The notes under the pieces are model-generated. The model searched no databases, was not told the origin of the DNA, and worked only from the letters and a program-made list of their open reading frames with translations. DNA of 64,000 nucleotides from Xanthomonas sp. SI (lineage in GTDB: Bacteria > Pseudomonadota > Gammaproteobacteria > Xanthomonadales > Xanthomonadaceae). Shown here one piece after another: positions 3,119 through 32,266 of the stretch (position 1 is its first letter; each line of letters starts with the position of its first letter). Location: contig NZ_CP051261.1 in NCBI RefSeq assembly GCF_014236855.1, positions 1,798,001-1,862,000 on the forward strand, in the 5' to 3' direction. The position numbers and the translations under genes were made by a program.

Positions 3119-3275
3119 CCCCTCTCCCACCGGGAGAGGGGTTGGGGTGAGGGTACGAGGCGAAGCCCTCGCAAAACCAGCTTGCGCTAATGGACGCTGC
3201 ACGAGGCTGCGCCCGACCCTCATCTGCGGGGCACCTTCCCCCGAAAAGGGGGCCATGGTCCCGGTGGGAGAAGGA
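3119..3275. repeat. Xanthomonadaceae palindromic element, copy 1
   Basis: Starts with a near-perfect hairpin, CCCCTCTCCC-acc-GGGAGAGGGG, followed by TTGGGGTGAGGGT. It then has a variable centre and closes with ACCCTCATCTGC...GCACC and GGTGGGAGAAGG. The outer GGGTGAGGGT / ACCCTCA parts are also complementary, so the whole unit can fold on itself. The same layout recurs at 3286-3414 and inside mfd at 30776-30958. Confidence 0.8.
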
Positions 3276-3285
3276 ACAGCCGTAG

Positions 3286-3414
3286 CCCCTCTCCCATCGG
3301 GAGAGGGGTTGGGGTGAGGGTATGGTGCGAAGCGTCTCGTGGAGTTTGGGTGCACGAGGCTGCGCCCGGACCCTCATCCGCCCCTGTGGGGCACCTTCCC
3401 CCGAGGGGAGAAGG
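3286..3414. repeat. Xanthomonadaceae palindromic element, copy 2
   Basis: A second copy directly after copy 1 in the same orientation. It opens with CCCCTCTCCC-atc-GGGAGAGGGG at 3286-3308, then TTGGGGTGAGGGT, and ends with ACCCTCATCCGCC...GGGGAGAAGG. The centre differs in sequence and length from copy 1, so the ends are conserved while the middle drifts. Confidence 0.8.
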
Positions 3415-28573: not shown

Positions 28574-31500
28574 TCACCGCGGCGACAGTGCCGCCAGCAG
28601 GCCGCGCGCGGCGTTGAAGCGGTCCGCCGCTTCCGGCAGCGGCAGCTTCACCTTCAGCTTGTCCGGGCCGTCCATCGCGTACAGCTTGGGCTGCTTCTGG
28701 ATCATCTGGATGATGGTCATCGGATCGATATTGGGCTTGGACTCGAACACGATGCGGCCGCCGTTCTCGCCAAGTTCCAGTTTGCGGATGCCCAGCGTGT
28801 TGGCCTGCAGCTTCAGCTCGGCGACCGCGAACAGGTGCTTCACCGCATCCGGCAGCAGGCCGAAGCGGTCGATCATCTCCACCTGCAGTTCGCGCAGCTG
28901 CTCGCTGTCGCGCGCGCTGGAGATGCGCTTGTACAGGGTCAGGCGGGTGTGCACGTCGGGCAGGTAGTCGTCCGGGATCAGCGCCGGCACATGCAGTTCC
29001 ACTTCGGCGCCGCGCGCTTCCTCGCCGGCGTCCAGGTCCGGCAGCTTGCCCTGGCGGATGCTGCGCACCGCGCGTTCCAGCAGCTCGGTGTACAGGCTGA
29101 AGCCAACCTCGGCCATCTGCCCGCTCTGGTCCTCGCCGAGCAGTTCGCCGGCGCCGCGGATTTCCAGGTCGTGGGTGGCCAGGGTGAAGCCAGCGCCGAG
29201 TTCGTCCATCGAGGCGATCGCGTCCAGCCGCTTCTGCGCATCGCCGGTGATGCTGCGCCGGTCCGGGACCAGCAGGTAGGCGTAGGCGCGATGGTGCGAA
29301 CGGCCGACGCGGCCGCGCAGCTGGTGCAGCTGGGCCAGGCCGAAGCGGTCGGCGCGGTTGATGACGATGGTGTTGGCGTTGGGAATGTCGATGCCCGATT
29401 CGATGATCGTGGTCGACAGCAGCACGTTGAAGCGCTGCTTCTGGAAATCCAGCATCACCCGTTCCAGCTCGCGCTCGGGCATCTGCCCGTGGGCGATGCC
29501 GATGCGCGCCTCGGGCACCAGCTCGCTGAGCTCGCGCTGCATGCGGCCGATGCTTTCCACGTCGTTGTGCAGGAAGTACAGCTGGCCGCCGCGCGCCAGC
29601 TCGCGCTGGAACGCCTCGCGCAGCAGCGCGTTGTCCCAGGCGGTGACGAAGGTCTGCACCGCCAGCCGGTTCGGCGGCGGGGTGGCGATGATCGACAGGT
29701 CGCGCAACCCGGCCATGGCCATGTTCAGCGTGCGCGGGATCGGCGTGGCGGTGAGGGTGAGCAGGTGCACGTTGGCGCGCAGCGCCTTCAGCGCTTCCTT
29801 CTGGCGCACGCCGAAACGCTGTTCCTCGTCGACCACGACCAGGCCCAGGTCCTTGAACTTCACGTCCGGCTGCAGCAGGCGGTGGGTGCCGATGATCACG
29901 TCGATGCCGCCGTCGGCGACCTTCTCCAGCTCGGCCTTGATCTCCTTGGCGCTCTTGAAGCGCGACAGCACTTCCACCCGCAGCGGCCAGTCGGCGAAGC
30001 GGTCGCGGAAGTTGCGGTAGTGCTGTTCGGCCAGCAGCGTGGTCGGCACCAGCACCGCCACCTGCTTGCCGGCGCTGGCCGCGGCGAACGCGGCGCGCAC
30101 CGCGACCTCGGTCTTGCCGAAGCCGACGTCGCCGCAGACCACGCGGTCCATCGGCTGGCTGCTGCCCAGGTCGCGCAGGGTGGCCTCGATCGCGGCCAGC
30201 TGGTCGGTGGTCTCCTCGAACGGGAAGCCGGCCGCGAACGGTTCGTACATGGCCCGGTCCACCTGCAAGGCCAGACCGGCGCGGGCGCGGCGCCGCGCCT
30301 GGATCTCCAGCAGTTCGGCGGCCACGTCGCGCACCTTCTCGGCGGCGCGGCGCTTGGCCTTGGTCCACTGCTCGCCGCCCAGCGAATGCAGCGGCGCGGT
30401 CTCGGCCGAGGCGCCGGAGTAGCGGCTGATCAGGTGCAGCTGCGCGACCGGCACGTACAGGCGGTCGCCCTTGGCGTATTCGATCTCCAGGAATTCGCCG
30501 GGCATGCCGCCGGCATCGAGCACGATCAGCCCGCGGTAGCGGCCGACGCCGTGGTCCTCGTGCACGATCGGCGCGCCTTCGGTCAGCTCGCCGAGGTCGC
30601 GGATGATCGCTTCCGGCTCGCGCCCGGCGCGGCGCGTGCGCCGCGGCTGGCCGGCGCGCTCGGGGAACAGCTGGCGCTCGGTGAGCACCGCGATGTGCGG
30701 ATCGTCGAGGGCGAAGCCGTCGTCCAGCGGTGCGACCGCGATGGCGAAGCGTGCAGGCGCTACATCGGAGTCGAGCCCCTCTCCCGCCGGGAGAGGGGTT
30801 GGGGTGAGGGTACGGCCGCTAGTGACCTGCTTCTGCGCAGCTGTGGAGGATGCAGACGAAGCAGAAGCAGAAGCAGCAGCAGCCTTCTTCGACAAGGATG
30901 GCGCGAGCGCCGCACCCTCATCCGGCGCTTCGCGCCACCTTCTCCCGGGGGGAGAAGGGAGGAATGCTGCGAAGTTTGGGATCACCTCGGGCTTCAGCCC
31001 CGCCGCGGCCAGCACTTCCAGCAGCGCTTCGCGGCGGCCCGGCGAGTCGGCGGCGATCAGCACGCGGCCCGGGTAGCTGCCGAGGAAGCTCTTCAGCGCT
31101 TCGGCCGGAGCGGCGTCCTTGGCCGCCACCGGCAGCGGCGGCAGCGGCTGGTCGCCCAGCGCCTGCGCCTCGTCGATGCGCGCGTGGTCGGCGGCCCACA
31201 CCTCGATGCGCGGCAGGCCGTTGAGCTTTTCGCGCAGCGTGTCCGGCGCCTGGTACAGCTCTTCGGGCGCCAGCAGCGGGCGCTCCACGTCGTGGCGGCG
31301 CTGCTCGTAGCGGTTCTGGGTCTGCGCCCAGAACGCATCGGCGGCGGCGCCCACGCCCGGCGCGAGCAGCGGCAGCACCGACTCGCCCAGATAGTCGAAC
31401 AAGGTGGCGGTGGCATCGCGCGCCGCGGCGCCGGCGCCGCGCGTCTCCTGGAAGAACAGCGGCAGGTAGTATTCGATGCCCGACGGCGCCAGCCGCGCCT

Positions 31501-32266
31501 TCAGGTCCTGGTACAGCGCGCTGCGCCGGGTGTCCACGTCGAAGCGTTCGCGCAGCGTGGCCAGCACCCGCTCCACGCTGGCATCGTCCATCGGCACTTC
31601 GCGGCCGGGCAGCATCTTCACCGCCTGCACGTGGTCCAGCGAGCGCTGCGATTCCGGGTCGAAGGCGCGGATCGAGTCGATGTCATCGTCCAGCAGCTCG
31701 ATCCGCAACGGCGTGTCCGAACCCATCGGATACACGTCGAGCAGGCCGCCGCGCACCGCGAAATCGCCCGGGTCCATCACCTGCGGCACGTTGCGGTAGC
31801 CGGCGCTCTCCAGGCGGCGTTTTTCCGCCTCCAGGTCCAGGCGCTGGCCCACGTGCAGGTCGAAACTGCCGCCGACGATGTAGCGCAACGGCGCCACGCG
31901 CTGCATCAGCGTCTGCACCGGCACCACCACGATGCCCTGTTTCAGCGTCGGCAGCCGGTGCAGCGCCGACAGGCGCTGGCTGACGATGTCCGGGTGCGGG
32001 CTGAACTGGTCGTAGGGCAGGGTCTCCCAGTCCGGGAACGGCACCACCGGCAGGCTGCCGTCGCCGGCCAGCAGCGTGTGCAGGTCGGCCTCGATCTGGT
32101 GCGCGCTCTGGTTGTCGCGCGCGACCACCAGCAGCGGCCCGCGATGCGCCGCGGCGGCGCAGGCGATGTGCCAGGCCAGCGCGGTCGAGGACGCAGGGGC
32201 GCGCCAGAAGGCGCGGAGCTGGCCGGATTTGGGCAGCGGCGGAACGGGGAAGGAAAGAGGCGCCAT
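28574..32266 (-). CDS. mfd: transcription-repair coupling factor Mfd, with in-frame repeat insertion
   Basis: 1230 residues; E. coli Mfd has 1148. The UvrB-like N-terminus (1-350: FPDWETLPYDQFSPHPDIVSQR), RNA polymerase interaction domain (VHEDHGVGRYRGL), and RecG-like motor (Walker A GDVGFGKTEV, box VVDEEQRFGVRQKE, TATPIPRTLNMA) are intact, as is the C-terminal D7 domain. Mfd removes RNA polymerase stalled at lesions and recruits UvrA. Residues about 436-498 are not Mfd-like: they are the translation of a palindromic element (TLTPTPLPAGEG) plus an Ala/Ser-rich stretch, placed between PNFAAF and the conserved FAIAVAPLDDGF in domain D3. The frame stays open. Start ATG opens MAPLSFPVPPLPK. Confidence 0.96.
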   Translation of the reverse strand: MAPLSFPVPPLPKSGQLRAFWRAPASSTALAWHIACAAAAHRGPLLVVARDNQSAHQIEADLHTLLAGDGSLPVVPFPDWETLPYDQFSPHPDIVSQRLSALHRLPTLKQGIVVVPVQTLMQRVAPLRYIVGGSFDLHVGQRLDLEAEKRRLESAGYRNVPQVMDPGDFAVRGGLLDVYPMGSDTPLRIELLDDDIDSIRAFDPESQRSLDHVQAVKMLPGREVPMDDASVERVLATLRERFDVDTRRSALYQDLKARLAPSGIEYYLPLFFQETRGAGAAARDATATLFDYLGESVLPLLAPGVGAAADAFWAQTQNRYEQRRHDVERPLLAPEELYQAPDTLREKLNGLPRIEVWAADHARIDEAQALGDQPLPPLPVAAKDAAPAEALKSFLGSYPGRVLIAADSPGRREALLEVLAAAGLKPEVIPNFAAFLPSPPGRRWREAPDEGAALAPSLSKKAAAASASASSASSTAAQKQVTSGRTLTPTPLPAGEGLDSDVAPARFAIAVAPLDDGFALDDPHIAVLTERQLFPERAGQPRRTRRAGREPEAIIRDLGELTEGAPIVHEDHGVGRYRGLIVLDAGGMPGEFLEIEYAKGDRLYVPVAQLHLISRYSGASAETAPLHSLGGEQWTKAKRRAAEKVRDVAAELLEIQARRRARAGLALQVDRAMYEPFAAGFPFEETTDQLAAIEATLRDLGSSQPMDRVVCGDVGFGKTEVAVRAAFAAASAGKQVAVLVPTTLLAEQHYRNFRDRFADWPLRVEVLSRFKSAKEIKAELEKVADGGIDVIIGTHRLLQPDVKFKDLGLVVVDEEQRFGVRQKEALKALRANVHLLTLTATPIPRTLNMAMAGLRDLSIIATPPPNRLAVQTFVTAWDNALLREAFQRELARGGQLYFLHNDVESIGRMQRELSELVPEARIGIAHGQMPERELERVMLDFQKQRFNVLLSTTIIESGIDIPNANTIVINRADRFGLAQLHQLRGRVGRSHHRAYAYLLVPDRRSITGDAQKRLDAIASMDELGAGFTLATHDLEIRGAGELLGEDQSGQMAEVGFSLYTELLERAVRSIRQGKLPDLDAGEEARGAEVELHVPALIPDDYLPDVHTRLTLYKRISSARDSEQLRELQVEMIDRFGLLPDAVKHLFAVAELKLQANTLGIRKLELGENGGRIVFESKPNIDPMTIIQMIQKQPKLYAMDGPDKLKVKLPLPEAADRFNAARGLLAALSPR
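30776..30958. repeat. palindromic element inserted in frame inside mfd
   Basis: Same layout as the copies at 3119 and 3286: CCCCTCTCCC-gcc-GGGAGAGGGG, TTGGGGTGAGGGT, then a variable centre (AGAAGCAGAAGCAG-type run), ACCCTCATCCGGCG, and a closing TTCTCCC-gggg-GGAGAAGG hairpin. Its length of about 183 bases is a multiple of three with no stop in the mfd frame, so it adds about 61 residues to the protein. Confidence 0.85.

Follow-up and report, generated by a model that had tools for sequence, protein, structure and literature searches.

Palindromic repeats of different kinds recur at one loop of the transcription-repair coupling factor Mfd in Lysobacteraceae and a neighbouring family

The gene mfd of Xanthomonas sp. 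SI carries a palindromic repeat within its reading frame, in the 64,000-nucleotide stretch of DNA analysed here (the window; contig NZ_CP051261.1). How did such an element enter a conserved gene, and is it kept for a function or simply tolerated? REPs of the GTAG and CGTC groups are short palindromes described in the main text of PMC3733652 as mostly intergenic and in some cases coding, many of the latter in genes for replication and repair. Different REPs occupy approximately the same site in recB of X. campestris and X. oryzae, and flexible linkers or loops have been proposed as REP-tolerant (PMC3733652, main text). Rickettsia palindromic elements (RPEs), of 105–146 bp, lie in frame in conserved protein genes, where they are tolerated (Ogata 2000, as cited in Delihas 2007, PMC2229807). 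In-frame palindromic repeats have formerly been scattered cases. One repeatedly used loop offers natural replicates, which help to tell tolerance from function and reveal which loops can take up long disordered segments. Whether repair is altered by REPs in repair genes also becomes testable, via natural orthologues carrying different repeat types.

An in-frame type A element in Mfd domain D3

The mfd product scored above both NCBIfam cut-offs (PRK10689, 1401.9 bits, cut-off 1329; TIGR00580, 1021 bits, cut-off 800), and the closest Mfd among same-genus genomes (G002) was 98% identical. An earlier note on this DNA had described the element as lying in frame with no stop or frameshift, which was borne out by an uninterrupted 1230-aa frame on the minus strand, and the approximately 60 residues that it was said to add (about 436–498) were confirmed as residues 437–497 (Table 1). 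Its edges encode PSPPGRRWREAPDEG (residues 437–451, nt 30914–30958) and TLTPTPLPAGEG (residues 486–497, nt 30776–30811). Hairpin arm 1 consists of two 11-nt halves, 100% complementary, with a 1-nt spacer, and arm 2 of two 9-nt halves, also 100% complementary. The 201-nt strand containing the element folded at −107 kcal/mol versus −81.75 (sd 4.78) in 200 dinucleotide-preserving shuffles (z −5.28; shuffles as good, 0/200). An Rfam search with 701 bases returned three sub-threshold matches only, the best to the Xanthomonas sRNA sX2 (E 0.01); this weak match (23.5 bits, gathering 40) lies within the insert, at 30828–30923 on the strand opposite mfd.

Table 1. Features of the mfd locus and further type A copies, in window coordinates
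Feature	Position	Strand	Remarks
mfd (transcription-repair coupling factor)	28574..32266	-	1230 aa, uninterrupted ORF
Type A palindromic element, in frame, 183 nt	30776..30958	-	Mfd residues 437-497; two-armed
Hairpin arm 1, CCCCTCTCCC..GGGAGAGGGG	30776..30798		inverted repeat I3; encodes part of TLTPTPLPAGEG
Hairpin arm 2, CCTTCTCCC..GGGAGAAGG	30938..30958		inverted repeat I7; encodes PSPPGRR
Expanded element centre, Ala/Ser/Lys-rich	30812..30913	-	residues ~452-485; unlike consensus centre of genomic copies
Upstream edge of host loop, NFAAF (residues 431-435)	30962..30976	-	end of helix; AlphaFold2 model helix 104-107
Downstream edge of host loop, strand FAIAV (residues 507-511)	30734..30748	-	AlphaFold2 model strand 179-183
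First part of domain D3, residues 394-436	30959..31087	-	best of two PF21132 Pfam stretches, ending at insert
Further copy of type A family	3119..3275		by eye; one arm degenerate; coordinates from earlier note
Further copy of type A family	3286..3414		by eye; coordinates from earlier note

The proposed placement in domain D3 also held: the best PF21132 stretch ends at the insert, and the structural model puts the loop in D3. The host loop comprises ~13 residues in E. coli Mfd (413–425) versus 80 in Xanthomonas sp. SI. In an AlphaFold2 model of 288 residues built from 70 sequences (mean pLDDT 75.5; model residue + 328 = Mfd residue), the D3 core reached ~90 and the insert ~38–54, with values below 50 at model residues 134–170, and the top PDB matches in Foldseek were E. 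coli Mfd structures. The insert, which is probably translated, is predicted by this model, a check that the earlier note had suggested, to form a disordered loop between a D3 helix and strand.

Genome-wide (5.25 Mb), the type A arm pattern, searched with ≤2 mismatches, gave 135 forward and 136 reverse matches and 0 in the reversed control; the arm is nearly palindromic, so that forward and reverse counts largely represent the same arms. Arms often formed tandem arrays with ~140 bp spacing. In the stretches read, arms of the CCCTCTCCC type occupied 118 distinct places, and 58 distinct full elements had a modal length of 129 nt (22/58), the mfd copy having a centre ~54 nt longer than usual copies. 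The mfd element had been equated with those at 3119–3275 and 3286–3414; by eye, this stands for the arms and fails for the centre. Four of the six frames were open in 51, 53, 52, and 41 of the 58 copies (the other two in 5 and 8), and element length was divisible by 3 in 24/58, so in-frame capture would be easy. The GTAG tag was absent from the consensus of the 58 elements, and GTAG or CTAC occurred ≤12 nt outside an arm at 10/58 places only; type A is therefore without a conserved tag and lacks this mark of GTAG REPs. No CGTC tag was conserved in the copies read either. The genome has two Y1_Tnp genes, and type A arms were absent from the 3.3-kb stretches around both, so type A does not flank a RAYT there and mobilization of type A by RAYTs was rejected. 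At L406, the repeat next to a Y1 (RAYT-like) transposase gene is of a different sort, GTAGGAGCGGCTTCAGCCGCGAC, present together with its inverse.

Repeats of different kinds at one Mfd loop

Repeats of different kinds recur at this loop in Lysobacteraceae and a neighbouring family. Among the best 80 of 303 loci from named relatives, the loop region was longer than 66 residues in 29, with a two-armed repeat in 11. Relatives had no equivalent non-repeat filler of the same length, a possibility raised in the earlier note: the loop region was ≤66 residues in 51 of these 80 loci versus 125 in Xanthomonas sp. SI. One set of relatives' loci consisted of the top scores of insert-containing queries and is accordingly biased towards carriers. 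An order-wide search matched 145 of 151 genomes and revealed repeats outside the family in three type D genomes; seven other outside-family loci that were read had no repeat at the loop. In a class-wide search (143 genomes, 133 matched), 119 loop-spanning matches had length differences of −12 to +7 residues relative to the query, so these 119 are without a long insert. Across 110 Mfds, with the N-terminus set aside, insertions of >16 residues were confined to this loop; at the N-terminal end, open frames extend, and one protein (L132) has 33 residues after residue 4.

Kinds of insert were assigned by pattern matching and by visual reading of the DNA, those of short remnants being uncertain; on this basis, type A occupied the loop in the same orientation in P. 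spadix, a Pseudoxanthomonas MAG, and nine further genomes (G287, G278, G216, G296, G140, G050, G039, G047, and G069), and in reverse in P. sacheonensis, G059, and Luteimonas aestuarii. Type B, CGTCATCCCCGCG.., was present in P. japonensis, P. sp. CF125, Lysobacter sp. Root494, G041, G042, and G218, and type B′, with CCGGCG stems, in P. koreensis, a MAG, and G058, with a single palindrome in P. kalamensis. Three genomes from another family of the order (G388, G396, and G368) carried type D, and Luteimonas sp. 8-5 has a possible further kind. Three loci (L131, L134, and L157) showed length changes at the same loop without recognized repeats. The insertion point shifts by several codons between lineages (AF/LPSP, AFLN/PSP, AFV/RHP, FLSD/RHP, and EFC/SPLP, the slash marking the junction).

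When local alignments were compared with 200 shuffles, the A–B score was reached by 192/200, the D–B score by 187/200, and that of reversed A with B by 11/200. The similarity between A and D is weak (score reached by 1 and 0 of 200 shuffles), so the clearly unrelated kinds are A and B/B′ only; the view that all kinds are mutually unrelated was rejected on this ground, and type D could be remotely related to A. B and B′ are CGTC-tagged REPs. One type B insert (L144) reads CGTC-ATCCCCGC-GAAG-GCGGGGAT-CCA plus an opposed second arm, and type B copies in G430 read CGTC-ATTCCCGC-GAAA-GCGGGAAT-CCA in opposed pairs (tag and tail were built into the search pattern). The features given for CGTC-1 are a CGTC tag, an 8-bp stem starting with AT, a 4-nt loop, a CCA tail, and head-to-head dimers (PMC3733652, main text). 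Type B shares the tag, the AT-starting stem, the 4-nt loop, the tail, and the dimers; B′ stems start with GT in part.

A, B/B′, and D are multi-copy repeats in the genomes tested. B/B′ arms were detected in 12/13 genomes searched, including 10/10 carriers, with 6 to 441 matches on both strands; among insert-free genomes, G433 had none and G432 had 9. Type A arms were detected in 24/24 genomes, carriers and non-carriers, at 2 to 134 places, and type D arms in 3/3 genomes (18, 35, and 32 forward). The mfd copy is counted in these figures wherever it fits the pattern, and the reversed control was 0 in every search.

Trees were built without insert columns; they are quick trees, with 51/152 inner branches open in the 159-row tree. 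Loop-state changes, a count that lumps gains with losses, numbered at least 32 in the 159-row tree with remnants counted and at least 22 in a 158-row tree with two-armed inserts only; the rows left out were L086 (partial; type A reversed), second copies from the same genome, and, in the 158-row tree, L262. Close relatives make the turnover plain: type B in P. sp. CF125 stands against reversed type A in its sister P. sacheonensis, and a clade of type A carriers also contains P. japonensis with type B and P. sp. PXM01 with no insert. If pieces of mfd had moved between lineages, fewer independent insertions would be needed. A record titled Bacillus subtilis SK7B5 (L114) holds a Stenotrophomonas-like Mfd and is probably mislabelled or contaminated.

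Descent within the genus and repeats in other genes

In a same-genus set of 20 genomes, its own included, whole-protein alignment recovered the insert in one piece in 17, a short remnant in G019, and no insert in G001 and G013. The last two fall inside the carrier clade in the tree, so that loss is the simplest reading; the insert is inherited, and a single insertion accounts for the data within the genus. An assembly error, the other doubt raised in the earlier note, was rejected because the insert recurs in separately assembled genomes. Mfd with the insert remains under purifying selection, with dN/dS of 0.165 in clade-1 carriers (insert included) and 0.095 in a second carrier group; the insert-free groups had 0.061 (Xanthomonas) and 0.127. 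One genome (G017; L035 5308-5661; G017:C1:3453461-3453814:+) holds a second, partial Mfd copy spanning residues ~423–542 with the repeat insert still in frame; it lies ~100 bp beyond the end of the mfd match and has 84% identity and a 162-aa open frame.

Repeat arms are rare inside genes in the four genomes sampled. For unannotated stretches, gene predictions came from a home-made codon model, and these stretches, chosen around listed arms and hence not an unbiased gene sample, contained 4/219 arms of this genome in predicted genes and 215/219 outside, being 0.82 coding by the model. Two of the four were in mfd, one in HrpB, and one in the RecB C-terminus, the last two answering the earlier proposal to look for the repeat in other coding regions of the genome. 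The pooled set of 238 arms included 19 from five stretches of other genomes (0/19 in genes), and when 188 arms were screened with a margin of 45 bases, the mfd pair were the only genic arms. Among genomes picked as Mfd insert carriers, 2/35 arms were genic in G058 (mfd, by position), 7/36 in G430 (an Lhr-like helicase below family cut-offs, RlmKL, mfd, and IcmF), and 2/42 in G050 (both IcmF). A class of helicase-only hosts, suggested by Mfd, HrpB, and RecB, was rejected owing to RlmKL and IcmF in G430 and IcmF in G050.

At the same site in the linker of IcmF (fused isobutyryl-CoA mutase; L381 3441-6992 and L395 5190-8813), G430 has type B and G050 has type A. A loop of HrpB is also recurrent: 30 loci, the best scores of an insert-containing query and therefore biased towards carriers, comprised 11 with type A signatures (some half), 2 shorter half-copies, 1 type D-like, 3 with other long loops, and 13 with none. 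This HrpB helicase loop sits just before V.VLPLHGEL (L295 2036-4696; L315-L325). In RecB (L173 8231-12028), the type A arm lies near the C-terminus, past the end of the TIGR00609 match.

Explanations for the recurrence and known systems

We consider it probable that a permissive Mfd loop has been recurrently colonized by repeats and that tolerance keeps the inserts. A REP/MITE-like multi-copy palindromic repeat would have landed in mfd of the ancestor of Xanthomonas clade 1 and would then have been inherited in frame within that clade. It would survive because it sits in a D3 surface loop, flanked by the helix ..NFAAF and the strand FAIAV.., in which additional disordered residues may do little harm, and its survival would be aided by a GC-rich repeat that is nearly stop-free in four of six frames. 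The same loop would have been re-entered in other Lysobacteraceae and the neighbouring family by different kinds in both orientations, after which the repeats would have decayed to remnants, been lost, or been replaced, while insertions almost everywhere else in genes would have been removed by selection. That tolerance, and not benefit or target preference, is the cause, as well as the mode of repeat movement, is what we infer here; of the two options in the earlier note, tolerance in a surface loop is favoured, and a useful flexible linker less so.

It is unlikely that several repeat kinds favour the mfd stretch as a target, or that a resident copy attracts new ones. The tandem arrays of type A mean that copies may attract copies, and different kinds do share one site, with P. 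japonensis (B) inside a type A clade; however, the insertion point differs by several codons between lineages, no shared target sequence was seen in a non-systematic look, and the HrpB and IcmF loops behave alike. Selection for an insert that alters Mfd, and hence repair or mutability, strikes us as quite improbable, even though Di Nocera 2013 speculated on an adaptive role for REPs in replication and repair genes (PMC3733652, main text). The hosts Mfd, RecB (C-terminus), HrpB, and the Lhr-like helicase (family matches below cut-off) would fit such a role, as would retention of the insert in 17/20 same-genus genomes and the dN/dS of clade-1 Mfd, which lies above that of insert-free Xanthomonas and makes a mild effect on Mfd possible. 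Against this stand the two same-genus genomes without the insert and the one with a remnant only, the drift of the centre in sequence and length among carriers, the presence among the hosts of a CoA mutase (IcmF) and of an rRNA methyltransferase (RlmKL), and the sequence-unrelated peptides that fill the loop in relatives.

Effects at the level of the nucleic acid, with hairpins in the mfd gene or mRNA kept for regulation or homogenized by gene conversion with dispersed copies, have a very low probability in our judgement. Both arms pair low synonymous change with high amino-acid change, a combination reached by 1 and 0 of 1135 15-codon windows (17 same-genus sequences) and a hint of gene conversion with the dispersed copies; weakly in line with this, seven relatives have in mfd a long-loop arm variant that recurs elsewhere in the genomes (10/11 match), including four places in G000 and none in G000 mfd. 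Yet low synonymous change alone is not rare, since 191 and 123 of the 1135 windows match either arm, and this whole-gene control, the better test, weakens the difference in dS between the arms (0.06–0.13) and their near flanks (0.24–0.33). Selection on hairpin pairing was rejected because no compensatory changes were seen in the arms, and in L038 and L047 the ORF is intact despite a disrupted left arm. One ancient insertion followed by many losses, or an assembly artefact, is hardly credible: a single insertion suffices within the genus and is refuted for the family, where unrelated kinds (A and B) and opposite orientations at one site exclude descent from a single event, and 17 separate same-genus assemblies contradict the artefact. 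Beyond the tolerance of a permissive loop, Mfd D3, HrpB, and IcmF could be long-lived landing loops used in turn by repeat families, with palindromic repeats as a standing source of disordered segments and those in Mfd tuning transcription-coupled repair; we regard this extension as doubtful.

The mfd element resembles RPEs, as the earlier note had proposed, in being a multi-copy palindrome in frame in a conserved gene, and would class as an RPE-like protein-coding palindromic element if, as its sequence suggests, the gene is still working; the resemblance is one of description, and RPEs come from other taxa. Type B at the Mfd loop further fits the description of CGTC-1, which is equated with RPE-6 of R. 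conorii and Neisseria dRS3 (PMC3733652, main text). Unlike in the RPE cases, several repeat kinds use one protein loop here. With intragenic REPs, the shared traits are in-frame short palindromes in repair genes and different REPs at one recB site, as far as the main text describes them; the differences are that type A has no conserved GTAG/CGTC tag in the copies read and that the scale at Mfd is larger, with A, B/B′, and D at one loop and the state changes counted above. The terms "mfd" and "transcription-repair" are absent from the main text of PMC3733652. Among the matches listed from the open-access literature, supplements aside and queried partly by the name Mfd, none named an Mfd with such repeats. 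The Mfd landing loop and the scale of its use appear to be new; in-frame REPs in repair genes and the shared recB site are already in print. We know of no link between Neisseria dRS3 and Mfd. Equated with CGTC-1, dRS3 is a probable relative of type B, and it is organized in large clusters in Neisseriae (PMC3733652, main text).
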